Translations under genes and position numbers: made by a program
Assembly: GCA_029907105.1 (NCBI GenBank)
Contig: JARYMM010000017.1
Location: 1 to 64,000, forward strand
Source: Anaerolineae bacterium
GTDB lineage: Bacteria; Chloroflexota; Anaerolineae; UBA3071
Length of the DNA: 64,000 nt
Reading direction: 5' to 3'
Shown here: positions 20,111-31,382 of the stretch, piece after piece
Layout of the letters: each line of letters starts with the position of its first letter
How positions within the stretch are numbered: the stretch's first letter is position 1
Notes under the pieces: generated by a model
What the model saw: only the letters and a program-made list of their open reading frames with translations
Databases searched by the model: none
What the model was told of the DNA's origin: nothing

Positions 20111-22696
20111 GTGCTCTTGCTCATTATCGCGTTGCTCTGGTTGGCAGCCTATCTCTTCACCTGGCAGGGGCAGCGGCGCGGGTGCTGGTCGGCACCCTAT
20201 CACCGCGACGTGGCCGCCTTGGGCGCGCTGGCCCTGGCTGCCGTGAGCTTCTTCTGGCGCATCCTCTGGGGCGGGTCGTGGATGCCCGCCGACGGCGGCG
20301 ACCTGGCCTCGTTCCTCTATCCCACCTATCGCTTCGTCGCCCAGAGCTTTGGCCAGGGTGTCCTCCCCCTCTGGAACCCGCACCTCTACGGCGGCGCTCC
20401 TTTCGTCGGTGACATTCAGGCCGGGCTGTTCTACCCGGTCAACGTGCTGGCCTTCTTCCTGGCCCGCCCGCTGACCTACCGCACCATGCAAGGCTTAAGC
20501 ATCTTCCACTTCTGGTGGGCGGGGGCGGGGATGTACCTCTTCCTGCGGTCATGGCCTGGCGGTTTGCGGTTTACGGTTTCAGATTTGAAGTTGGCTCGCT
20601 GGGCCTGCCTGGCCGGGGCGCTGGCCTTCATGTTCTCCGATGGCTTCCTCACCCACTTCGGCAACCTGAACCTCATCGCCGTGGCCAGTTGGCTGCCCTG
20701 GGTCTTTTGGGCCTATCTTCGCGGTATTGGAGATCAGGTATTAGTACTACAACGACGGTTTTGTCATTCTGAGGAGCGCAGCGACGAAGAATCTCATTCT
20801 GGAGTGACAAAGTGTGGGCCCCGAAGAGATTCTTCGCTCCCTACGGTCGCTCAGAATGACAGCGAGCAGCGGACCATTGTTGTAGAATTAGGGATGAGAT
20901 GGGCGGTGGTTGCTGGAGTGCTGCTGGGCGTGGCTACCCTGGCCGGCCATGCCCAGGTGACGCTGTACATCGCCCTGGCCTTGGCGCTCTACACGGCGCT
21001 GGACCTCTACCTGGCTTGGGGACAAGCTCCTCACCGCCTCGTTGCCTCGTTGCCTTGGTGCCTCACCTCCCTGTTACCTCGTTACCTCTTTTACCTGTTG
21101 ACCTGTTGCCTGGTTGCCCTGTTGCTCAGCGCCGTCGTCCTCCTTCCTGGCCTGGAGCTGACCCGCCACAGCGCCCGCCTCGGCTGGGATTACCAGCAGA
21201 CGGTGGGCTATTCCCTTTCGCCAGCACAGTGGATCGGGCTGCTCATCCCCGGCTACTTCGGGCGGGGACCGCAGTTTCACTGGGGGCTGTGGCCGCGGGT
21301 GGAGGTGGGCTACCTGGGCGTGCTGCCGCTGCTCCTGGCCCTGCTGGCGGTGCTGCGCGGCCGCCCGCGGCGCATGTGGGCGCTGTTGGGGCTGGCTGTG
21401 GCTGCGTTTCTCATCGCCCTGGGCATCTACAGTTTGCCCCACGGCTGGCTGGTGCAGCTTGTGCCCGGCTTTGGCCAGTTCCGCGCCCCGGCGCGGCTGG
21501 TGCTGGTGATGGACTTCGGGCTGGCGGCTCTGGCCGCGCTGGGCCTCGATGCCTTATTGCGCCCGACGGAAGGCGACGCGGCTCCCCTTCGCCGGGTCTT
21601 CCGCCTGACGGCCTGGGCGGCCGGGGTCACCTGCGGCGTGGGGTTGCCGCTGGCTTACTTCGCCCTCATCACCGGGCAGGACAGAAGCGCGGAGATTTTC
21701 TCGCGCCTCTCCGTGGCCGTCATCGCCGTGGCCATCTTCGCCGGCCTGCTGCTGGCCAGCCTGGCCCTGCTGGCGGCGCGGCGCTACGGCTGGGCGCGGC
21801 CGCGCACGCTGGGCCTGCTGGCCGTGCTGCTCATCTTCCTCGATCTGGGCAGCACGGGGGCCTACAACGACCTGGGGGCGGAGGACCCCACGCGCACCTT
21901 CGAGCATCCGCAGATCATCGCTTTCCTGCGCGGCGAGGCCGGGCCTTTCCGCATTGACGCCCGCACGGGCATCGAGCAGCTCTGGCAGCCGGACACGGCG
22001 CTGGTGTATGGCCTGGACGACGTGTGGGGCGTGGTCAACCCGCTTGTCCTGGCCGGCTACGAACGTTATTGGGAGGGGATGGGCAGTCGTTCGTCGCCGC
22101 TGTACGATTTCCTCAACGCCCGTTTCGTCATCGCCCGCAAGGACGTGGTGCTGGACTGGGACAAGTTCGAGCTGGCCTTCGACGGCGACCCGCAGCTCAA
22201 CGTCTACCGCAACCGCCGGGCGCTGCCGCGGGCGTACCTGGTGCACCAGGCCATCGCCGTGCCCGATCACGAGGCGGCCTGGGCGGCGGTGCACGCGCCC
22301 GATTTCGATCCGGCGACGACGGTGGTGGTGGAAGGGGAAACGCCGACATTGGCCCCGGCGACGGGGCCGGAGCGGGCGGAGATCGTGGCCTACGGCCCCA
22401 ACGAGATCGTGGTCGAGGTGGAGGCCAGCGCGCCGGGGTATCTCGTGCTGAGCGAGGTCTTCTATCCCGGCTGGCGGGTTTTCGACGAAAGCGGGGGCAG
22501 GCGTCCGTTACAGCGGGCGAACACTGCCTTTCGCGCCGTGGCCGTGGAGCCGGGAAGGGAGCGTCTGCGCTTTGTCTACACGCCGGCCAGCTTCCGCCTG
22601 GGCGCGGCGCTCAGCGGGGCGACGGCGCTGGCCCTGCTGGTGGGACTGGTCTGGCTTTGGCGGAGAGAGGTCGGCGGAGAAGGGGCAAGGGCGTAG
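20111..22696 (+). CDS. YfhO-like polytopic membrane protein
   Basis: Large membrane protein, 861 residues, starting at GTG 20111. About a dozen hydrophobic segments are followed by an extracytoplasmic beta-rich C-terminal part (YPGWRVFDESGG, a typical YfhO ending) and a last helix. Such proteins resemble GT-C glycosyltransferases that use lipid-linked sugars; NPHLYGGAPFVGDIQAG in the first loop is characteristic. Three repeat-derived stretches interrupt it: about residues 150-164, 215-256 (a CHSEERSDEES-like segment) and 308-335. All keep the frame. Confidence 0.85.
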   Translation: MLLLIIALLWLAAYLFTWQGQRRGCWSAPYHRDVAALGALALAAVSFFWRILWGGSWMPADGGDLASFLYPTYRFVAQSFGQGVLPLWNPHLYGGAPFVGDIQAGLFYPVNVLAFFLARPLTYRTMQGLSIFHFWWAGAGMYLFLRSWPGGLRFTVSDLKLARWACLAGALAFMFSDGFLTHFGNLNLIAVASWLPWVFWAYLRGIGDQVLVLQRRFCHSEERSDEESHSGVTKCGPRRDSSLPTVAQNDSEQRTIVVELGMRWAVVAGVLLGVATLAGHAQVTLYIALALALYTALDLYLAWGQAPHRLVASLPWCLTSLLPRYLFYLLTCCLVALLLSAVVLLPGLELTRHSARLGWDYQQTVGYSLSPAQWIGLLIPGYFGRGPQFHWGLWPRVEVGYLGVLPLLLALLAVLRGRPRRMWALLGLAVAAFLIALGIYSLPHGWLVQLVPGFGQFRAPARLVLVMDFGLAALAALGLDALLRPTEGDAAPLRRVFRLTAWAAGVTCGVGLPLAYFALITGQDRSAEIFSRLSVAVIAVAIFAGLLLASLALLAARRYGWARPRTLGLLAVLLIFLDLGSTGAYNDLGAEDPTRTFEHPQIIAFLRGEAGPFRIDARTGIEQLWQPDTALVYGLDDVWGVVNPLVLAGYERYWEGMGSRSSPLYDFLNARFVIARKDVVLDWDKFELAFDGDPQLNVYRNRRALPRAYLVHQAIAVPDHEAAWAAVHAPDFDPATTVVVEGETPTLAPATGPERAEIVAYGPNEIVVEVEASAPGYLVLSEVFYPGWRVFDESGGRRPLQRANTAFRAVAVEPGRERLRFVYTPASFRLGAALSGATALALLVGLVWLWRREVGGEGARA
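20755..20876. repeat. Hairpin repeat (TCATTCTGAGGAGCGCAG type) inserted in frame in the YfhO-like gene
   Basis: TTGTCATTCTGAGGAGCG ... AAGAATCTCATTCTGGAG is followed by AGAGATTCTTCGCTCC ... GCTCAGAATGACAGCGAG. The ends are inverted copies of each other and read through in frame, adding about 40 polar residues to a membrane protein. A related sequence occurs between genes at 28325-28495. Confidence 0.85.
21032..21118. repeat. Pyrimidine-rich GTTGCCTC/GTTACCTC tandem tract inside the YfhO-like gene
   Basis: Degenerate 8- to 10-nt units (CCTCGTTGCCTCGTTGCCTT, GTTACCTCGTTACCTC, TTGACCTGTTGCCTGTT) give a Leu-rich segment that passes as a membrane helix. Strand bias and unit size match the intergenic arrays. 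Confidence 0.6.
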
Positions 22697-23028: not shown

Positions 23029-25374
23029 ATGGAGCTCAGCCGAAGAGATTTCCTGAAGCTCTCGGGTGTGACGTTTGGCGGAGTTCTCCTCTCCTCCCTA
23101 TCGGCTGGCCCTGCTTTTGCCCAGGGCGGGCCTTTCAAGCTGCACAAGCCTGTCGGTGAGACCCCCACCATCTGCTGTTTCTGCGCGGTGGGCTGCGGGG
23201 CGATCGTGGCGGCGCAAGATGGCAAAGTACGTAACATCGAAGGCGACCCCGATCACCCGGTCAACCGGGGTTCCCTGTGCAGCAAGGGCATGGCCCTGGC
23301 CCAGATCAACACGGTGAACGGCGAGATCAACCGCCATCGCTTGCAGAAGGTGAGATATCGTGCCCCTGGGTCATCGGTATGGGAGGAGAAATCCTGGGAC
23401 TGGGCCCTGGAAGAAATCGCCAAACGGGTCAAAGCCACACGTGACCGCTACTTCATCGCCCGGGACAGCGAAGGCCGCACGGTCAATCGGCTGGAGGCCA
23501 TTGCTTCCCTGGGTGGCGCGGCACTGGATAATGAGGAATGCTCCCTGATCAGCAAAGCCATGCGCGCCCTGGGCCTGGTGTACATCGAGCACCAGGCGCG
23601 CATTTGACACTCCTCCACTGTTGCGGCTCTGGCAGAGTCGTTCGGCAGAGGAGCAATGACCAATCACTGGTGCGATATCCAGAACAGTGATTGCATCATC
23701 ATCGTGGGGAGCAACGCGGCCGAGAATCACCCCATCTCCTTCAAGTGGGTGACCAAGGCCAAAGAGGAAAACGGGGCCACGCTGATCAGCATTGATCCCC
23801 GTTTCACCCGTTCGTCGTCCAAAGCGGATATCTTTGCCCACCTGCGTTCGGGCACCGACATCGCCTTCTTCGGGGGCATGATCAAATGGGTCCTCGATGA
23901 CATGGAGGTCAACCCGCATCTCTATAACATGACCTATGTCACCGAATATACCAATGCGGCATTCCTGATTGACCCCCAGTTCAAGACGGCTGCCGAGCTG
24001 GATGGCAAGTTCTCCGGCTTTGTGCCCGGCGACAATCCCAACTTCGGCAAGTACGACAAGGCCACCTGGAAGTGGCAAAAGGACGAGAACGGCATCCCAC
24101 TCAAGGACAAGACGCTGCAAGACCCCAACTGCGTCTTCCAACTGCTCAAGAAGCAGTACGCGCGGTACGATGCGGACACCGTGTGCAATATCACGGGCAC
24201 GGACAAGGCCACCTTCCTGAAGATCTGCGAGACCTATGCGCGGCTCACAGGGCCGGTGGGCAAGTCGGGCACCATCATGTATGCTATGGGCACCACCCAG
24301 CACACCCATGGCACACAGAACATCCGCGCCTATTCCATCCTGCAGTTGCTGCTGGGCAACATCGGTGTAGCCGGCGGCGGCATCAACGCCCTGCGTGGCG
24401 AGTCCAACGTGCAGGGTTCCACCGACCACGCCCTGCTCTACCACATCCTGCCGGGCTACCTGACCCCGCCCACTGCCACCCAGCCGACACTGAAGGACCA
24501 CCTGGATGCCAAACTGGCCGGTTTTGTTACTTCCGATCCCAAGAGCGCGTCCTGGTGGCTGAACTACCCCAAGTACTTCGTCAGCCTGCTCAAGAGCTGG
24601 TATGGCGACAATGCCACGCCGGAGAACGACTTTGGCTACGAATGGCTGCCCAAGCTCAACCCCGGCACCAACTACTCGCATATCGCCCTCTTCGAGGCCA
24701 TGGCTCGCGGCGAGATCAAGGGCCTCTTCTGCTGGGGGCAGAACCCGGCCGTGGGCGGCCCCAATGCCTTTGCCGAGTTGCGGGCGTTGCACAACCTGGA
24801 GTGGCTGGTCACGGTGGACCTGTGGGAGACGGAGACCTGCGCTTTCTGGCAGGAGCCTGGTGTGGACCCGGCGAGCATCCAGACGGAAGTGTTTGTGCTG
24901 CCGGCGGCGGCCTCCTTTTGAGGATCCATCACCAACAGCGGGCGCTGGAGCCAATGACGCTGGAAGGCGGTGGACCCGCCCGGCGAGGCGCGGCCCGACC
25001 TGGAGATCATCACCGAGCTGATGCTCAAGGTGATCGGGCTGTACGAGGCTGAGGGCGGCGTGCTGCCGGAGCCCATCACCAAACTGCGCTGGAAGGGCTG
25101 GTATGACGCCAACCCGCTGCCTCGCGGCGCCAAGAGCCTGGTTGACCTGGTCTCCCGCGAGATCAACGGCTGGGCCGAGGCGGACATCCCCGATCAGTAC
25201 ACCGCGGGCCAGCTCCTGGCCTCCTTCGCCCATCTCAAAGACGATGGCTCCACCTCGTCTTCCTGCTGGATCTTCACCCAGTCCTACAACGAGAAGGATG
25301 GCAACCGCTTCTATTCCCTGGGCGTGCGTTACCTGCAGACACTCCGCAAGCCGGTGCTCGAGGGGGGACACTGA
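23029..25374 (+). CDS. fdhA: Formate dehydrogenase alpha chain, selenoprotein, with two further in-frame UGA codons and a short C-terminus
   Basis: Periplasmic molybdo/tungsto-bis-MGD enzyme oxidising formate. A twin-arginine signal (SRRDFLKLSG) leads; the Fe-S motif is CCFCAVGCGA ... RGSLCSKG. Codon 193 is TGA in EHQARI-U-HSSTVAALAESFGRG, exactly where FdnG-type enzymes carry catalytic selenocysteine. Homology continues in the same frame to SSCWIFTQSYNEKDGNRF. Two more in-frame TGAs occur at codons 631 (after LPAAASF) and 643 (GRWSQ-TGA-RWKAV, where relatives have Trp). The protein then ends after about 780 codons, whereas FdnG-type chains have about 1015, so the final molybdopterin-binding domain is absent. 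It may be decaying or may need multiple recoding. No beta or gamma subunit is adjacent. Confidence 0.88.
23605..23653 (+). promoter_or_regulatory. UGA (Sec) codon and SECIS-like hairpin of fdhA
   Basis: TGA at 23605-23607. Downstream, CTCCTC (23610-23615) pairs with GAGGAG (23648-23653), and an inner 6-bp stem GGCTCT/AGAGTC (23625-23639) closes a GGC apical loop. Guanines at the start of the apical loop are a known requirement for bacterial SelB binding. Confidence 0.75.
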
Positions 25375-25412
25375 GTAAGACAGTCGTATCCGGCTTGCGT
25401 GAATGGCATGGC

Positions 25413-25449
25413 GCGGAGGGACACGCGACCCGTTCGTGTGTCCCTCCGC
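25413..25449. terminator. 12-bp hairpin between fdhA and fdhE
   Basis: GCGGAGGGACAC pairs perfectly with GTGTCCCTCCGC around a 13-nt loop. No long T run follows, so it may be an attenuator or an mRNA-stability element rather than a strong terminator. Confidence 0.6.
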
Positions 25450-25508
25450 TCTCTATCGGGCATGTGCCTGGAGAAAATGCTGAGCAAAACGGATGAAAGG
25501 AGACGCTT

Positions 25509-26336
25509 TTGACCACTGAGGACAGAACACAACGCATCCTTCAACGTCTGGCGGAAGCGGCGGAGGAAACGCCTGACCTGAGCGGCTTCTACGAATTGCA
25601 TCAGAAGCTGTTTCGCTTGCAGGGTGAAGCCAGAGCAGACATCGCCGCTGCCCTGGAGCTGGCCGATGAGGAGGCGCTGAAAGCCCGTACGGCGCAAGGC
25701 CTGCCCATGTTGTCCTTTGCCCAACTGCCCATTGCCGCCGGGCGTTTCGCTACGCTGGCCACGGCTGTCGCTGCCGTGCTCTCGGAGTATGACCCCGACC
25801 TGGGGAAACAGGCGTTGCCCGACGACGCTGCGGCCTGGCTCTCCCTGGCCGAAAGGCGATTCGAGGAAGGCCGGGTCAACCCGGAGAGGGCGGAAAGGAC
25901 GGCGGAGCTCACTCTGGCCGAGATGGCTGTGGACCTGGCGCTGAAACCTTACCTGGAGTGGGCAGCGGATCAGGTGCTGCCCCACCTGAACCTGGAGCGG
26001 TGGAAGCGGGGTTATTGTCCGGTCTGCGGTGGGCCTCCGGACTTTGCCGTCCTGGAAGAAGAAACGGGCGCTCGTTACCTGATCTGTTCGCGGTGTGCCG
26101 CCGAGTGGCCCTTCCGAAGACTGGGCTGTCCCTTCTGCAACACCAACGACTACAGCAAGCTGTTCTACTATCTCAGCGACGATGAGGTCTATCGCCTCTA
26201 TGTCTGCCAGGAGTGCCGCCACTACCTGAAGAGCATGGACCTGCGCAAGGCCACGCACCGCGTGGTGCTGGAGGCAGAGCGCGTCACCACCGTAGCCATG
26301 GATGTGGCCGCCCAGCGGGAAGGATACCGTTCGTAG
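25509..26336 (+). CDS. fdhE: Formate dehydrogenase accessory protein FdhE
   Basis: Maturation factor for Tat-exported formate dehydrogenases; in E. coli it is a rubredoxin-like iron protein that binds the alpha chain. The C-terminal half has paired CxxC motifs in order: CPVCGG, CSRCAAEWPFRRLGC, CPFCN and CQECRHYLKSMD. Length is 275, near the family norm. Translation likely starts at the TTG at 25509, which follows AAAGGAG. Retention of this gene suggests that fdhA, despite its oddities, was functional until recently or still is. Confidence 0.93.
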   Translation: MTTEDRTQRILQRLAEAAEETPDLSGFYELHQKLFRLQGEARADIAAALELADEEALKARTAQGLPMLSFAQLPIAAGRFATLATAVAAVLSEYDPDLGKQALPDDAAAWLSLAERRFEEGRVNPERAERTAELTLAEMAVDLALKPYLEWAADQVLPHLNLERWKRGYCPVCGGPPDFAVLEEETGARYLICSRCAAEWPFRRLGCPFCNTNDYSKLFYYLSDDEVYRLYVCQECRHYLKSMDLRKATHRVVLEAERVTTVAMDVAAQREGYRS

Positions 26337-26386
26337 CCGTTGGCAAGGCCGCTTTCGGTCGCCCCATCTATAGCATGCCTTTTCTT

Positions 26387-26415
26387 TTGCGCAGGACCGG
26401 GCACTGGTGTATAAT
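26387..26415 (+). promoter_or_regulatory. Promoter of the selenoprotein peroxiredoxin/thioredoxin operon
   Basis: TTGCGC (26387-26392) and a perfect TATAAT (26410-26415), spacer 17 bp. It lies 55 bp before the peroxiredoxin ATG, so the redox operon can be expressed apart from fdhA-fdhE. Confidence 0.75.
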
Positions 26416-26469
26416 TTTGAATGCTTATTCTTCAACACCGATAACATCTGAAGGAAAGGAAGACAGGGC

Positions 26470-27033
26470 ATGGGCAGACCAAGGATGTGGATGCTCCTGG
26501 GCGTCGTGCTTGCCGTGGGGCTGCTGGCCGTTGCCTGCGGCGGCAGCGGTGAACCCCGCATCAAAAACGCCAGGCTGGAGGTGGGCGACAAGGCTCCCGA
26601 CTTCCGGCTGCCGGATCACACCGGAGGCTACATCCGGCTGAGCGACTACCGGGGCAAGAAGAACGTCGTCATCGCTTTCTATCCTCTGGCCTGGACCCCC
26701 GTTTGAGGACAGGAGATCCCCGCCTACGAAGCCGATTGGGAGCGCTTCGAGGCGGTAGATGCCCAGGTTCTGGGTATCAGTGTGGACAGTACGGCCACTA
26801 ATGCGGCCTGGGCGGAGTCTCTGGGCGTGAGCAAAGTCCCGCTGTTGAGCGATTTCTGGCCACACGGGGCCGTGGCGCAGAGCTACGGCGTGTTGCGTCC
26901 CCAGGGCTTCACCGAACGGGCCATCTTTATCGTGGACAAGGAAGGCATCATCCGCTATAAGCACATCCACGATCTCAACGAACTGCCGGACAACGAACTG
27001 CTATTCCCGGTTCTGGAAGAGATCAACAGATAA
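26470..27033 (+). CDS. Peroxiredoxin-like selenoprotein lipoprotein
   Basis: AhpC/Bcp-type thiol peroxidase, 188 codons including TGA at codon 79. The N-terminus is a lipoprotein signal ending LLAVAC-GG. The fold runs VGDKAPDFRLPDHTGGYIRL, then NVVIAFYPLAWTPV-U-GQEIPAYEADWERF. Bcp/AhpC proteins have the peroxidatic Cys exactly at U. The same frame continues to VLGISVDSTATNAAW, LLSDFWPHGAVAQSYGV and AIFIVDKEGIIRYKH, all classic peroxiredoxin blocks. Without readthrough the product would be a dead 78-residue stub. AGGAAAGGAAG precedes the ATG. Two Sec thioredoxin-like genes follow, a probable reductant pair. Confidence 0.88.
26704..26755 (+). promoter_or_regulatory. UGA (Sec) codon and SECIS-like hairpin of the peroxiredoxin
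   Basis: TGA at 26704-26706. From 13 nt after it, CCGCCT (26720-26725), a bulged A, and CGAAGC (26727-26732) pair perfectly with GCTTCG (26744-26749) and AGGCGG (26750-26755). That makes a 12-bp stem with an 11-nt apical loop CGATTGGGAGC that has G at its second position. Confidence 0.85.
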
Positions 27034-27049
27034 CGAGGAGGCACACAGC

Positions 27050-27433
27050 GTGATCAGCAAGACCAAGGGGATAGCCCTGATAGCTTTGCTTGTGCTGGTG
27101 GGCAGTGCGATTCTTTCCGCCTGCGGCGGAGCGGGCCCGACCGGGAACATCAAGGGCCCCTATATGATCTACTTCTACGCCAAATGGTGACCGATCTGCA
27201 AAGAGATGACGCCCATCGTGGATGGGCTGGAAAAGACGTACGGCAAAGAGTTCACCATCGTGCGTGTGGATATTGATACGGCCAGGGGGAAAGAACTGGC
27301 CCGTGAGCACGGCTTCATTGGCCAGCCCACGTTCATCTTTTTCGACTCCTCCGGCCAGGAGGTGCGCCGTCTCATGGGGCCTCAATCTGTCGAGACCATG
27401 CGGCTGGCCGTGGAAGGCGTTCTGCGCAAGTAA
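27050..27433 (+). CDS. Thioredoxin-like selenoprotein lipoprotein 1 (UPIC)
   Basis: Lipid-anchored thioredoxin-fold protein of 127 codons. GTG start after GAGGAG; signal peptide ALIALLVLVGSAILSAC with a textbook lipobox LSAC. The active site reads YFYAKW-U-PICKEMTP, so the first Cys of CxxC is TGA (codon 47) and the second Cys is kept. The same frame continues KEFTIVRVDIDTARGKELA, GFIGQPTFIFFDSSGQEV (cis-Pro segment GQPTF) and VEGVLRK. It starts 16 bp after the peroxiredoxin stop. Likely role: extracytoplasmic disulfide reductant, perhaps for the selenoperoxiredoxin (inferred). Confidence 0.88.
27188..27227 (+). promoter_or_regulatory. UGA (Sec) codon and SECIS-like hairpin of thioredoxin-like protein 1
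   Basis: TGA at 27188-27190. GCCCATC (27211-27217) pairs with GATGGGC (27221-27227) around a GTG loop. The CCCATC/GATGGG core begins 21 nt after the TGA, the same spacing as in the second thioredoxin gene. Confidence 0.8.
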
Positions 27434-27449
27434 CGAGGAGAAAGACCTC

Positions 27450-27827
27450 TTGTTGAAGCGTGTGTTGTTCCTGTTGCCCCTGGCTATGTTGATGCTGACG
27501 CTGATCCTGGCCTGCATGTCCTGTTCGTCCGGGGATGAGAACCGTCCCACCCTGATCTACTTTCGTTCCTCCACCTGACCGTACTGCAAGAAGATGACGC
27601 CCATCGTGGATGGGATCCGAAGCAAGTACCGGGGCGAATTGAACGTCGTATATGCCACGCTGGAGGATAAGGAAGGCCGGGAACTGGCCGATCGGTATGG
27701 CATCCTCGGTTACCCTGTCGTGTTGCTTCTGGACAGGGAAGGGGAAAGGGTCAGCCTGCTGCGTGGGGTGGTGCCACAACCCACCTTGGAGCAGGCGGTG
27801 GAGGAGCTCATCCGGGCGACGCCATAG
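27450..27827 (+). CDS. Thioredoxin-like selenoprotein lipoprotein 2 (UPYC)
   Basis: Paralogue of the preceding gene, 125 codons, starting at tandem TTG codons (27450 preferred) after GAGGAG. The signal peptide LLPLAMLMLTLILAC ends in a lipobox. The active site is YFRSST-U-PYCKKMTP with TGA at codon 43, followed in frame by ELNVVYATLEDKEGRELA, GILGYPVVLLLDREGERV (cis-Pro GYPVV) and AVEELIRATP. The U-P-Y-C motif is glutaredoxin-like. It lies 16 bp after the first paralogue, so this is a tandem duplication that has diverged. Confidence 0.88.
27576..27614 (+). promoter_or_regulatory. UGA (Sec) codon and SECIS-like hairpin of thioredoxin-like protein 2
   Basis: TGA at 27576-27578. CCCATC (27600-27605) pairs with GATGGG (27609-27614) around GTG. 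The 6-bp core and its 21-nt distance from the UGA are identical to thioredoxin-like protein 1. Confidence 0.8.
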
Positions 27828-27860: not shown

Positions 27861-28130
27861 ATGTGTCTGGGCATTCCGGCCCGAGTGCTTGAAGTTGATA
27901 GGAGCGGCCTGCTGGCCATGGGCACGGTGGACTTCGGCGGCGTGACACGGGAGGTCTGCCTGGCCTACGTGCCTGAAGCGCAGGTGGACGATTACGTCAT
28001 CGTGCACGCCGGCTTCGCCATCAGCCTGCTGGACGAGGAAGAGGCGCGGGCCAGCCTCGACCTGCTGCGGGAGGTGGGCCTCCTGGAGGAGGAATCCGGC
28101 GTGCCGTTGCCGGCACCTGCCAGCCCCTGA
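27861..28130 (+). CDS. hypC: HypC/HybG/HupF-family chaperone
   Basis: Small chaperone of 89 residues beginning MCLGIPARVLEV, the invariant HypC start whose Cys2 carries the Fe(CN)2CO precursor with HypD during NiFe-hydrogenase maturation. GGGAG precedes the ATG and the gene lies 33 bp after the second selenothioredoxin. No other hyp or hydrogenase gene is in the window, so it may serve hydrogenase genes elsewhere or have another role in this operon. Confidence 0.92.
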   Translation: MCLGIPARVLEVDRSGLLAMGTVDFGGVTREVCLAYVPEAQVDDYVIVHAGFAISLLDEEEARASLDLLREVGLLEEESGVPLPAPASP

Positions 28131-28287: not shown

Positions 28288-28316
28288 TAGACAGATGGCC
28301 GACCCTGTGCTATAAT
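28288..28316 (+). promoter_or_regulatory. Promoter of the cytochrome c biogenesis genes
   Basis: TAGACA (28288-28293) and TATAAT (28311-28316) with a 17-bp spacer. The transcript would start within the repeat cluster before resB. Confidence 0.7.
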
Positions 28317-28324
28317 ACGGTCGC

Positions 28325-28495
28325 CTGTATCGCGAAGGCGAAGGGGCCTGCCCTGAGCAAAAGCGAAGGGGCCTGCCCTGAGCGAAAGCGAATGGGAGCG
28401 AAGGATCTCCCGGTTACATGAGCGGGAGACCCTTCGCTGCGCTCAGGGTGACGTTTTCGGAGCACAGGGTGACGTTTTCGGAGCAGACGAGCGGG
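28325..28495. repeat. Compound repeat before resB
   Basis: Two tandem copies of GCGAAGGGGCCTGCCCTGAG are followed by a hairpin (GGATCTCCC/GGGAGACCC region flanked by AGCGAAAGCGAATGGG and CGCTGCGCTCAGGGTGAC). Two tandem copies of CAGGGTGACGTTTTCGGAGC come last. The central part is the same family as the insertion in the YfhO-like gene. With the hairpin and promoter it fills the 28131-28502 gap. Confidence 0.8.
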
Positions 28496-28502
28496 AGTTC
28501 GG

Positions 28503-29675
28503 ATGAGCGAAGAGATACGGTCATCCACGCCTGGGCCGGGCACGCTGGACAGGATTTACGATTGGCTGACCCGCACGGGCACGGCGCTGGTCTTGATCGC
28601 TGCCGTGGGCATGGCCTCCCTGCTGGGCACGCTGATCCCGCAATACCCCGGCGGGCTGGAGGGGTTGCGGGCGCAGGGGGTCGAAGCGGGCAGCCCGCTG
28701 TTGGATGCCTTCGGGCTGTACGACGTCTACCGCGCGCCCTGGTTCGTGCTGCTGCTGGGGCTGCTGATGATCAGCCTGTTTCTGTGCACGCTGAAGCGCA
28801 CCGGACGATTATTGCGCGCCCGCCGCAAGCGCATTCCCTTCATCGCCAGCCTGGTGGCCCATTACAGCATCCTGGTGGTCATGCTGGGAGTGCTGCTGGG
28901 CAGTGTGGCGGGGCTGAGGGATACCATCTACCTGGCCGAGGGTGAGACGGCGCCCGTTCCCGGGGCCGACTTCGCCATCCGCCTGGACCGGGCGGAGGAG
29001 CGCTACAATCCCGATGGCTCGGTGCGCGACTGGTACTCCACCGTGACGGTCATCGAGAACGGCCAGGAGGTGAAACAATTCGTCATCGAGGTGAACCGCC
29101 CGTTGCAGCACCGCGGCTTTGCCTTCTACCAGTCGCAATTTGGCCAGATGCCCGATCAGAAGGGGCCATTGCCCTTGAGCCCGGTGCGGCTGCGGGTGAC
29201 TCGGGACGGCCGGCCTGTGCAGTTGCTGAGCATGTTCAACGCCGGTCAGTCCGGCGAGGAGTTGGAGCTCGCTTTCACGGCCTCGGTGCCCAACAGCCCC
29301 AAGAAGATCGAGGTGGTCGTGCTGCCGGGCCTGGGGCGGCAGTTGTGGCTGAGCCGTTACCCGACCCTGCCGGACAAGGTCATCCTGCAGGTGCTGGCCG
29401 GCGAGAGCGTGGGGATGGGCGAGGATTTGGAGCTTCTCTTCGCCGAGGAAGTGGACACGACGTCGGAAATCACCGTGGGACCGCTGGTCATCACCCTGGA
29501 GGACCTGAATCCCGACCTGGGCATGGACAGGATCGCCGAGGCGTTTGCCCAGCCGCGCTTCTGGTCGGGGTTGCAGGTGGACAGGAATCCGGGCCTGCCG
29601 CTGGTTTTCGCCGGGTTCGTCGGCATGGGCCTGGGTTGGGCAGTGGCCTTCCTGCTGCCTATTTTCAAAAGATAG
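28503..29675 (+). CDS. resB: Cytochrome c biogenesis protein ResB
   Basis: Membrane component of the System II haem export and ligation machinery, 390 residues. Transmembrane helices occur at about residues 27-45, 78-96 (WFVLLLGLLMISLFLCTLKR, a family signature) and 118-138, then a large extracytoplasmic domain (FAIRLDRAEERYNPDGSVRDW) and a last helix near the C-terminus. It precedes the CcsA partner by 180 bp, a gap filled by repeat-like sequence. It supports maturation of c-type cytochromes such as the tetraheme protein at 31517. Confidence 0.93.
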   Translation: MSEEIRSSTPGPGTLDRIYDWLTRTGTALVLIAAVGMASLLGTLIPQYPGGLEGLRAQGVEAGSPLLDAFGLYDVYRAPWFVLLLGLLMISLFLCTLKRTGRLLRARRKRIPFIASLVAHYSILVVMLGVLLGSVAGLRDTIYLAEGETAPVPGADFAIRLDRAEERYNPDGSVRDWYSTVTVIENGQEVKQFVIEVNRPLQHRGFAFYQSQFGQMPDQKGPLPLSPVRLRVTRDGRPVQLLSMFNAGQSGEELELAFTASVPNSPKKIEVVVLPGLGRQLWLSRYPTLPDKVILQVLAGESVGMGEDLELLFAEEVDTTSEITVGPLVITLEDLNPDLGMDRIAEAFAQPRFWSGLQVDRNPGLPLVFAGFVGMGLGWAVAFLLPIFKR

Positions 29676-29856
29676 TCGGCAATTTGTTTACCGCAGAGAC
29701 GGAGAGGGCCCAGAGAGCGCTTTGTAGGCAGATTCCAACAGCCCTGGTCCAGGGGTGCGATGCACCTCTATTGCCGAATCAATGATGGCCTCTGTGATTG
29801 GTGGTGAGATTGCCCTTTTTGGGTTCTGGCTTGTCTGGGTTAGGAGGACTCATCTC

Positions 29857-30705
29857 ATGAACACGACCGTTCTTTGGGCCGCTGTGAGCACGTTGGCGGT
29901 GGCTACGTTGGCTTACCTGATCCAATTCATCACCGGCGGCGGGAAGGCGAGCGAGACACCGCTGCGCCGCTGGCCGGGCTGGCTGGGCAGCGCGGCAACC
30001 TTCGCCAGCCTGTTGCTGCTGACGTCCAGTGTGATTCAGTTTGTGATCCTCTACAAGCGCCTGCCGCTGGCGACGTTCATCGAGACGGCGCTGACCATGG
30101 CCTGGGGGTTCACGTTGGCCTATCTGGCGGTGGAAGTCCTGGTGGAATGGCGGCTGCGGGCGGGGCTTTTCTTCCTGCCGGTCCCGTTGCTGTTGACCGC
30201 CTACGTCGCCCGCCAGAACTGGGAGGCGGTCGTGCCCAGGCATCTGATGCCGGCGTTGCAGAGCTACTGGTTGCAGGTTCACGTGGCCACGGCGATGATC
30301 GCTTACTCGGCGTTTCTGGTCTCCTTCGGCCTGGCCATCATGGTCCTGCTGAGCGAGTGGCTGCCGGGGCTGGCGGAGCGTTTGCCGGAGGAGCGATCGC
30401 TAAGCGGTTGGATGAGCAAAGCCGTCTCCATTGGCTTCGTCTTCGAGACGGCGATGCTTCTGACCGGCTCCGTCTGGGCGCAGTACGCCTGGGGCAGCTA
30501 TTGGAGCTGGGACCCCAAGGAGACCTGGGCGCTGATCACCTGGCTGGTCTATGCCTTTTTCCTGCACGCCCGGGTGGTGCGGGGCTGGAGGGGCCGTCGG
30601 CTGGCCTGGGCGGCGATCGTCGGCTTTGCGGTGGTCCTGTTCACCTGGTTCGGCGTGAACTGGCTGACAAAGCTGGTGAAGCTCAGAAGCCTGCATACCT
30701 ACTGA
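29857..30705 (+). CDS. ccsA: Cytochrome c biogenesis protein CcsA/ResC
   Basis: Haem-handling integral membrane protein, partner of ResB; 282 residues, about eight helices. The WWD-type haem motif is visible as WAQYAWGSYWSWDPKETWAL near the C-terminus, with flanking His residues (LQVHVATAMIAYSAF and FFLHARVV). The ATG at 29857 is chosen because AGGAGG precedes it at 8-9 nt; longer in-frame extensions lack a ribosome site. Confidence 0.93.
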   Translation: MNTTVLWAAVSTLAVATLAYLIQFITGGGKASETPLRRWPGWLGSAATFASLLLLTSSVIQFVILYKRLPLATFIETALTMAWGFTLAYLAVEVLVEWRLRAGLFFLPVPLLLTAYVARQNWEAVVPRHLMPALQSYWLQVHVATAMIAYSAFLVSFGLAIMVLLSEWLPGLAERLPEERSLSGWMSKAVSIGFVFETAMLLTGSVWAQYAWGSYWSWDPKETWALITWLVYAFFLHARVVRGWRGRRLAWAAIVGFAVVLFTWFGVNWLTKLVKLRSLHTY

Positions 30706-30716
30706 GGCCCTGGGAG

Positions 30717-31382
30717 ATGCAAGACGCAAGAGGCAAGAGGCAAGATGCAGGAGGCAAGATGCAAGATGCAAATGGCCCCTTACGCCTTGCTTCTTGCCTC
30801 TTGCTTCCTGCTATCCTCCTCATCGTTTTGGCGGTGCCTTTGTTGAGCGGTTGTGGCAGTGACCAGGTCGCCTTACCGGCTGTGGCGCCGGAGATCGCTG
30901 GGCCATTGTTGCCGTCGCTGGCGGAACCGCCGGCCGAACCCCGGCCGGCGGTCGAGTTGGGCCGCTACGCGCCGGATTTCACCCTGACCGATCTGAATGG
31001 GGAAGCGGTGAGTCTGAGCGACTGGCGCGGGCAGGTGGTGCTGCTCAACTTCTGGGCTTCCTGGTGTGCGCCCTGCCGGCAGGAGATGCCCCTGTTGCAG
31101 GCCACTTACTCCGCCTATGCCGATGACGGCCTGGTCGTGCTGGCCGTCAACATGGGCGAAGAGAAGAGGCGGGTGGAGAACTTTGCCGCCGACCTGGCCC
31201 TCACCTTCCCTGTGCTGACCGATGAAGAGATCACGGCAGGCACGCTCTACCGCGTGCGCGGCGCGCCGACCACCTATTTCATTGACCGCGACGGCGTCAT
31301 CCGCCAACGGTACGTGGGCCCGTTGAGCGCAGAGATGTTGGCTTCGATATTGAGCGGCAAGAGAGCGTTTCCTAACCAGTAG
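30717..31382 (+). CDS. TlpA/ResA-like thioredoxin-fold lipoprotein
   Basis: Extracytoplasmic thiol-disulfide oxidoreductase that keeps apocytochrome c cysteines reduced. The mature domain begins LGRYAPDFTLTDLNGEAVSL; the active site is FWASWCAPCRQEM (ordinary CAPC, in contrast to the selenothioredoxins); the cis-Pro segment is GAPTTYFIDRDGVI. A lipobox LLSGC lies near residue 43. The first 30 or so residues before the hydrophobic core are encoded by a GCAAGATGC/TTGCCTCTTGC inverted repeat, so the signal peptide is partly repeat-derived. Start 30717 or 30759. Confidence 0.9.
   Translation: MQDARGKRQDAGGKMQDANGPLRLASCLLLPAILLIVLAVPLLSGCGSDQVALPAVAPEIAGPLLPSLAEPPAEPRPAVELGRYAPDFTLTDLNGEAVSLSDWRGQVVLLNFWASWCAPCRQEMPLLQATYSAYADDGLVVLAVNMGEEKRRVENFAADLALTFPVLTDEEITAGTLYRVRGAPTTYFIDRDGVIRQRYVGPLSAEMLASILSGKRAFPNQ
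30720..30813. repeat. GCAAGAGGCAAGATGC inverted repeat forming a signal-peptide region
   Basis: Purine-rich 7-nt units (GCAAGAG, GCAAGAT) at 30720-30768 face complementary units CTTGCTTCTTGCCTCTTGCT at about 30787-30808. Both arms are translated as part of the TlpA-like lipoprotein. Confidence 0.85.

Follow-up and report, generated by a model that had tools for sequence, protein, structure and literature searches.

A tandem set of predicted exported selenoproteins, one peroxiredoxin and two thioredoxin-like proteins, in an Anaerolineae genome

Do neighbouring genes with in-frame TGA codons in an Anaerolineae genome encode a selenium-based system for the reduction of peroxides outside the cell? 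The question is raised by a stretch of 64,000 nucleotides from Anaerolineae bacterium (assembly GCA_029907105.1, contig JARYMM010000017.1, positions 1 to 64,000; hereafter the window), in which an initial annotation had described four selenoprotein genes in 5 kb, coding for formate dehydrogenase (FDH), a peroxiredoxin (Prx) and two thioredoxin-like proteins (Trx1 and Trx2). Translation of the window frames with in-frame TGA read as selenocysteine (Sec, U) gives a different count: three intact genes, prx, trx1 and trx2, located within 1.4 kb, and one broken gene, that for FDH. The window genes prx, trx1 and trx2, the FDH gene and the fdhE- and hypC-like genes lie on the forward strand. We propose, with a probability of about 0.62, that prx, trx1 and trx2 encode real selenoproteins anchored to the membrane on its outside, where an AhpE-like Sec peroxidase would be recharged by two Trx-like proteins of the UxxC type.

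The prx, trx1 and trx2 genes

The prx gene (26470..27033) codes for an AhpE-like peroxiredoxin of 187 amino acids, whose Sec at residue 79 (UGA at 26704..26706) is part of the motif PLAWTPVU, corresponding to PxxxTxxU. It is followed by trx1 (27050..27433; 127 amino acids, GTG start) and trx2 (27450..27827; 125 amino acids, TTG start), coding for thioredoxin-like proteins with U47-P-I-C (motif KWUPICK, UGA at 27188..27190) and U43-P-Y-C (motif STUPYCK, UGA at 27576..27578), respectively. Each of the three genes contains a single in-frame TGA and is then open as far as its own terminal stop. Gaps of 16 bases separate prx from trx1 and trx1 from trx2, a hypC-like gene follows after another 33 bases, and purine-rich stretches resembling ribosome sites are present ahead of the starts of these genes. 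All three proteins begin with lipobox-like signal peptides, whose motifs AVAC, LSAC and ILAC (Prx, Trx1 and Trx2) can be read directly from the sequence and suggest export and lipid anchoring. Alignments with homologues bear out two statements of the initial annotation: the in-frame TGA falls on the catalytic Cys/Sec column in Prx and both Trx-like proteins, and all three frames go on past the UGA, with constraint downstream of it.

Prx matches the AhpC-TSA model PF00578 with 131.7 bits (cut-off 26). Its nearest solved relative is Rv2238c of Mycobacterium tuberculosis (E 7e-32), known as AhpE, a 1-Cys peroxiredoxin whose reductant is mycoredoxin. We collected homologues from 124 loci, representing 120 distinct sequences, and their peroxidatic column is encoded by TGA in 87 and by a Cys codon in 33. 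By this likeness Prx appears to be an AhpE-like Sec peroxiredoxin and a probable peroxidase. Position 110 is occupied by an additional Cys, which may have a resolving function, in 65 of the 87 Sec forms and in 8 of the 33 Cys forms. Mature Prx of the window has no further Cys or Sec besides residue 79 and the lipid-anchored first Cys; no internal bond is thus possible and a separate reductant is needed, which makes trx1 and trx2, located directly behind prx, natural candidates. An export signal with lipobox, as defined by a simple rule, was found in only two of the 120 distinct Prx sequences, that of the window and that of a genome from another family of the same class (G293). These two are exactly the ones with Trx genes behind them, and they were grouped together in a quick tree with SH-aLRT support of 93. 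The source genome also contains a second, more distant Prx match (G000:C56:58237-58692; 34%), with one TGA in frame.

Both Trx1 (54.7 bits) and Trx2 (42.4 bits) match PF00085, whose cut-off is 23.5, and neither reaches the cut-off of the thioredoxin equivalog TIGR01068 (52.8 and 38.3 bits against 96.8); we therefore call them thioredoxin-like. Their mutual protein identity is approximately 36%. None of the NCBIfam models of the Tso operon reached its cut-off; the only match, of TsoB (NF045694) with Trx1, was weak and partial (32.6 of 805 bits).

The cluster occurs once more, in locus L119 of G293, with the order fdnG (with one UGA), fdnH, fdnI, prx(U), trx1(U), trx2(Cys). The codons at the Sec site in the window and in G293 are TGA and TGA in prx, TGA and TGA in trx1, and TGA and TGC in trx2; the corresponding motifs of G293 are DWUEVC in Trx1 and EGCPFC (CPFC) in Trx2. 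Cys codons in close relatives, together with evidence of sequencing errors at these TGAs, had been named in advance as a refutation, and trx2 of G293 indeed has a Cys codon, yet the more distant Trx2 homologue L108 carries UGA at the Sec column. This distribution fits exchange between Sec and Cys better than a sequencing error. The codons after the UGA yield dN/dS values of 0.225 (prx), 0.251 (trx1) and 0.378 (trx2) between the window and G293.

Close relatives of the cluster are scarce. Prx was matched at E 1e-40 or better in 55 of 396 genomes of the class, with only G293 as near as 71%, and Trx2 at E 1e-11 in 11 of 396. Of nine Trx-match regions read for Prx (L097, L119-L126), which cover all of these 11 genomes except G162 and G395, only L119 contains it. 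We had considered that the Prx-Trx-Trx order might be widespread, and rejected this: none of 13 regions of the class has a Trx1/Trx2-like gene near Prx. Among 80 GTDB loci, some of which end near Prx and do not always provide complete flanks, such a gene was present in two (L189 and L203), both of the Cys type. A TlpA-like match lies behind Prx in two more (L191 and L193); all four are Cys-type Prx relatives, mostly from archaeal assemblies, with the Trx- or TlpA-like match directly behind.

Selenocysteine machinery and a hairpin in the Trx-like family

The presence of genes for Sec incorporation had been suggested as a check, and all of them were found. The source assembly (133 contigs, 3.78 Mb, 92.7% complete, 1.8% contaminated) contains selA (583 bits), selB (354 bits) and selD (371 bits), all above the NCBIfam cut-offs, and tRNA-Sec with 71.4 bits, also above its cut-off, with the UCA anticodon readable in its sequence. 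The selD match (L009, G000:C77:14126-15058) spans one in-frame TGA, and SelD itself may be a selenoprotein, judging from this codon.

In bacteria, a SECIS hairpin is expected downstream of the UGA. The 15 letters CCCATCGTGGATGGG occur in trx1 (27212..27226) and, identically, in trx2 (27600..27614), at equal distance from the UGA in spite of the low identity of the two proteins. We examined five base pairs at a set distance after the UGA in Trx-like genes of the Sec type (19) and the Cys type (14), with synonymous shuffles from each gene's own codons as a null, in which kinship among the genes is retained. All five pairs are formed in 17 of the 19 Sec genes (1.45 expected from shuffles) and in 2 of the 14 Cys genes (0.50 expected). 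If the pairing partner is offset by 1-3 bases, no gene of either group is fully paired. With three UxxU genes added, 97.3% of cells are paired in the 22 Sec genes and at most 53.6% when slid; changes on both sides affect three of the five pairs, in six cells, a number of pairs reached by 5 of 500 shuffles. The hairpin loop of Trx-like genes begins with C-G-U and is located at a spacing from the UGA that fits the bacterial SECIS model given in the portion of PMC13188914 consulted here. Mean folding z was -0.99 in the 19 Sec and -0.02 in the 14 Cys Trx genes (p 0.009), and for Prx it was -2.06 with Sec (85 genes) compared to -0.18 with Cys (33 genes; p 1e-12). An Rfam search of the whole window returned no SECIS family, only a tRNA-Glu. 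Because of its fixed distance from the UGA, its Sec-linked pairing and its both-sided pair changes, we regard the Trx-family hairpin as a bacterial SECIS candidate, based on the family and not on the folding of single genes.

A standard gene caller would treat the three UGAs as ordinary stops and the genes as pseudogenes or genes for short proteins. This explanation is hardly credible in view of the conservation of UGA at the catalytic column in many genomes, the constraint beyond it, the Sec-linked hairpin and the full Sec machinery. Sec decoding of prx, trx1 and trx2 is thus well supported by comparative sequence evidence.

Thioredoxin-like relatives with the motif U-x-x-U were found in 11 genomes (L098-L102, L121-L123, L226-L228). 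A lipobox-like signal is present in all 11 genes, and the two proteins compared with PF00085 both scored above its cut-off. Most of these genes carry the Trx-type hairpin downstream of the UGAs, its loop being separated from the first UGA by approximately 27 bases and from the second by 18. The frame of L098 continues into a cytochrome c-like sequence (CAACH), and the UxxU gene of L121 is adjoined by a cytochrome c-like gene. A UxxU protein, SelL, is also known from animals.

The formate dehydrogenase remnant and neighbouring genes

The initial annotation placed a Sec formate dehydrogenase next to the three genes. The gene in question, fdnG (23029..25374), codes for an FDH-N alpha subunit with a Tat-like N-terminus, and as assembled it is not a working gene: it is truncated, contains two extra UGAs and has no fdnH or fdnI adjoining it. 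What held of the claim is the true Sec TGA at codon 193 (23605..23607), within the sequence EHQARI-U-HS shared with L119. The other in-frame TGAs, at codon 631 (24919..24921, beside a two-codon deletion) and codon 643 (24955..24957), are read here as nonsense. In an alignment with 11 relatives (L071-L081; L082-L085 were left out), which have one TGA each, none has TGA at 631 or 643. The counterpart of codon 631 encodes Glu or Ala in all 11, the window lacking two codons before it; that of codon 643 encodes Trp in 10 and Tyr in one, and is TGG in G003 and G293. With the TGAs read through, the frame matches TIGR01553 with 898.1 bits (cut-off 814.2) over model positions 2-741 of 1009. Similarity ends near residue 760, the G003 homologue going on for approximately 270 residues further, and comparison with L119 and L086 did not reveal where the last 22 residues come from. 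A complete FDH-N alpha frame with one Sec codon and the C-terminal domain is thus absent from the window.

Codons 194-760 yield dN/dS of 0.15-0.19, equal to that of the intact pair G003-G293 (0.147), so that the decay, if real, is recent; from its sequence, fdnG of the source genome looks recently dead. Two other explanations of the gene have to be weighed. A functional FDH, short and with three UGAs read as Sec, would account for a frame that is open but for the TGAs, for the constraint up to residue 760 and for a hairpin that can be drawn downstream of TGA 631. It is nevertheless very improbable, as the additional TGAs occur in none of the aligned relatives, the C-terminal domain is missing, the genome contains no FdnH above 40% over part of its length, and constraint equal to that of the intact pair is also what recent decay predicts. 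Alternatively, the defects might be assembly or sequencing errors in an organism with intact fdnGHI like that of G293. We consider this unlikely, albeit with real weight: the assembly is multi-contig and incomplete and the frame is otherwise clean, but three independent defects would be required, and fdnG is the single FDH alpha match of the genome at E 1e-60, the beta matches all being weak. The best beta match of the genome has 51.5 bits, with 40% identity over 102 of 264 residues; the gamma subunit was sought next to fdnG only.

In the place of fdnH and fdnI, the fdnG remnant is followed by a gene for an FdhE-like FDH accessory protein (25509..26336, TTG start), which ends 133 bases before prx. 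It matches PF24859 with 40.8 bits (cut-off 27), stays below the cut-off of TIGR01562 (59 against 188 bits) and shares 61% identity with a gene in the FDH neighbourhood of G003. A perfect 12-bp inverted repeat (25413..25449) lies between the two genes and is not listed by a terminator scan.

Downstream of trx2, the hypC-like gene (27861..28130; TIGR00074, 79 bits, cut-off 48) is probably co-transcribed with prx, trx1 and trx2. Further downstream, at 28503-31382, lie ResB-, CcsA- and TlpA-like genes for cytochrome c maturation. This neighbourhood suggests another role for the same selenoproteins, namely a thiol-disulfide system for maturation of exported proteins or cytochrome c, in which Prx would be an oxidising or signalling relay rather than chiefly a scavenger. 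The association of UxxU relatives with cytochrome c-like sequences (L098 and L121) points in the same direction. A promoter-like site at 28288, ahead of the ccs genes, indicates, however, that these may form a separate unit, trx2 of G293 has other genes downstream, and Prx retains PxxxTxxU and an AhpE-like core; we therefore consider the maturation role improbable.

Positions 20750-20850 and 28310-28450 of the window translate to HSEERSDEES-like or similar repeated peptides and look like dispersed repeats; one of the two stretches is located inside a long membrane-protein frame.

A possible selenium relay and its relation to known systems

Our preferred reading remains that of an anchored Sec peroxidase served by two Sec Trx-like proteins. 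The selenol at residue 79 of Prx would reduce hydrogen peroxide or organic peroxides and become a selenenic acid, which Trx1 and Trx2, encoded in the same transcript unit, would reduce with the Sec residue of their U-x-x-C motif. The bond of the oxidised motif could in turn be reduced across the membrane, for example by a DsbD/CcdA-like protein of the genome (DsbD_TM, 54.7 bits, cut-off 27.1). Originally the set may have stood beside fdnGHI, perhaps to protect, outside the membrane, a Mo/Sec formate dehydrogenase sensitive to oxygen and peroxide, and it would have outlived fdnGHI in the source genome, where fdnG decayed. Of the extracytoplasmic peroxide-reduction system suggested initially, the exported Prx-Trx-Trx set is supported, while peroxide reduction and electron transfer are its conditional part.

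Several observations weigh against this reading. The cluster is known from two genomes only, both multi-contig assemblies, and the lipobox matches of Trx1 and Trx2 in G293 are poor (LVQC and PAAC), which means that lipid anchoring of all three proteins is not conserved. Sec-Prx of the AhpE-like family mostly stands without Trx genes, and the electron route among Prx, Trx1 and Trx2 is one that we infer from gene order only. Absence of Cys 110 was considered as a hallmark of the anchored Prx and is weakened as such, since 22 of the 87 distinct Sec forms lack it, namely the window, G293 and 20 others. As for the hairpin, two Cys Trx-like genes likewise form all five pairs, and the individual folding z is only -1.49 for the window Prx and +0.32 for that of G293. 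The DNA is GC-rich, and a general SECIS folding scan let 69% of 150 random TGAs pass; it was dropped as evidence in favour of the fixed-place family test. In this poorly discriminating scan the post-UGA fold of the window Prx is low in energy, those of Trx1 and Trx2 do not stand out (energies as low were seen in 49% and 34% of controls, respectively), and TGA 631, presumably a nonsense codon, ranks with true sites.

A broader generalization is tentative and, in our judgement, stands somewhat short of even odds: that Anaerolineae-type Chloroflexota possess an outer-face selenium thiol relay, composed of lipid-anchored Sec-AhpE and Sec Trx-like proteins, and that the wider family of the latter comprises UxxU members able to form a diselenide, in which two UGAs spaced by 9 bases share a single hairpin. 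Outside the cell, selenols are generally regarded as vulnerable. If the proposed arrangement is true, a peroxidase and its likely reductants, all of them exported selenoproteins, would represent a compact and testable selenium relay outside the cell. The covarying hairpin offers a gene-finding handle for the Trx-like family, as standard callers cut such genes at the UGA, and the UxxU relatives would permit a direct test of a natural diselenide in the thioredoxin fold.

Neither an anchored Sec Prx-Trx-Trx set nor a UxxU thioredoxin family was found in the open literature, subscription papers being outside the scope of our search; UxxU is listed for Prx-like families in the consulted parts of PMC9312934 and PMC2398784. 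With AhpE (Rv2238c), the best solved match, Prx of the window shares the PxxxTxxC/U core, and it differs in having Sec for Cys, a lipobox-type signal peptide and Trx-like genes directly behind. In comparison with the Sec peroxiredoxin family described in PMC13188914 (PF00578), again in the portion of that source used here, Prx has the same TxxU peroxidatic site, but it is predicted to be anchored outside and shares an operon with two genes for Trx-like proteins of the UxxC type. The operons named in that portion comprise Prx with a SELENOW-like gene, Prx-like with AhpD-like, SAO and Tso, and not Prx-Trx-Trx. Trx1 and Trx2 share UxxC with the Sec thioredoxin (PF00085) and the Sec thiol:disulfide interchange protein (PF13098) of the same source, and both Pfam models are matched; unlike these, they are predicted to be exported, are paired, adjoin a Sec-Prx and score far under the thioredoxin equivalog cut-off. 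The three-gene Tso and six-gene SAO operons, likewise from that portion, also combine several selenoprotein genes per operon, whereas prx-trx1-trx2 reaches none of their family cut-offs. Finally, the set of G293 lies directly behind an intact fdnGHI, whereas the window retains a truncated fdnG with two additional TGAs. Sec-Prx and Sec-Trx are thus known singly, and it is their combination in an anchored Prx-Trx-Trx set that is new.

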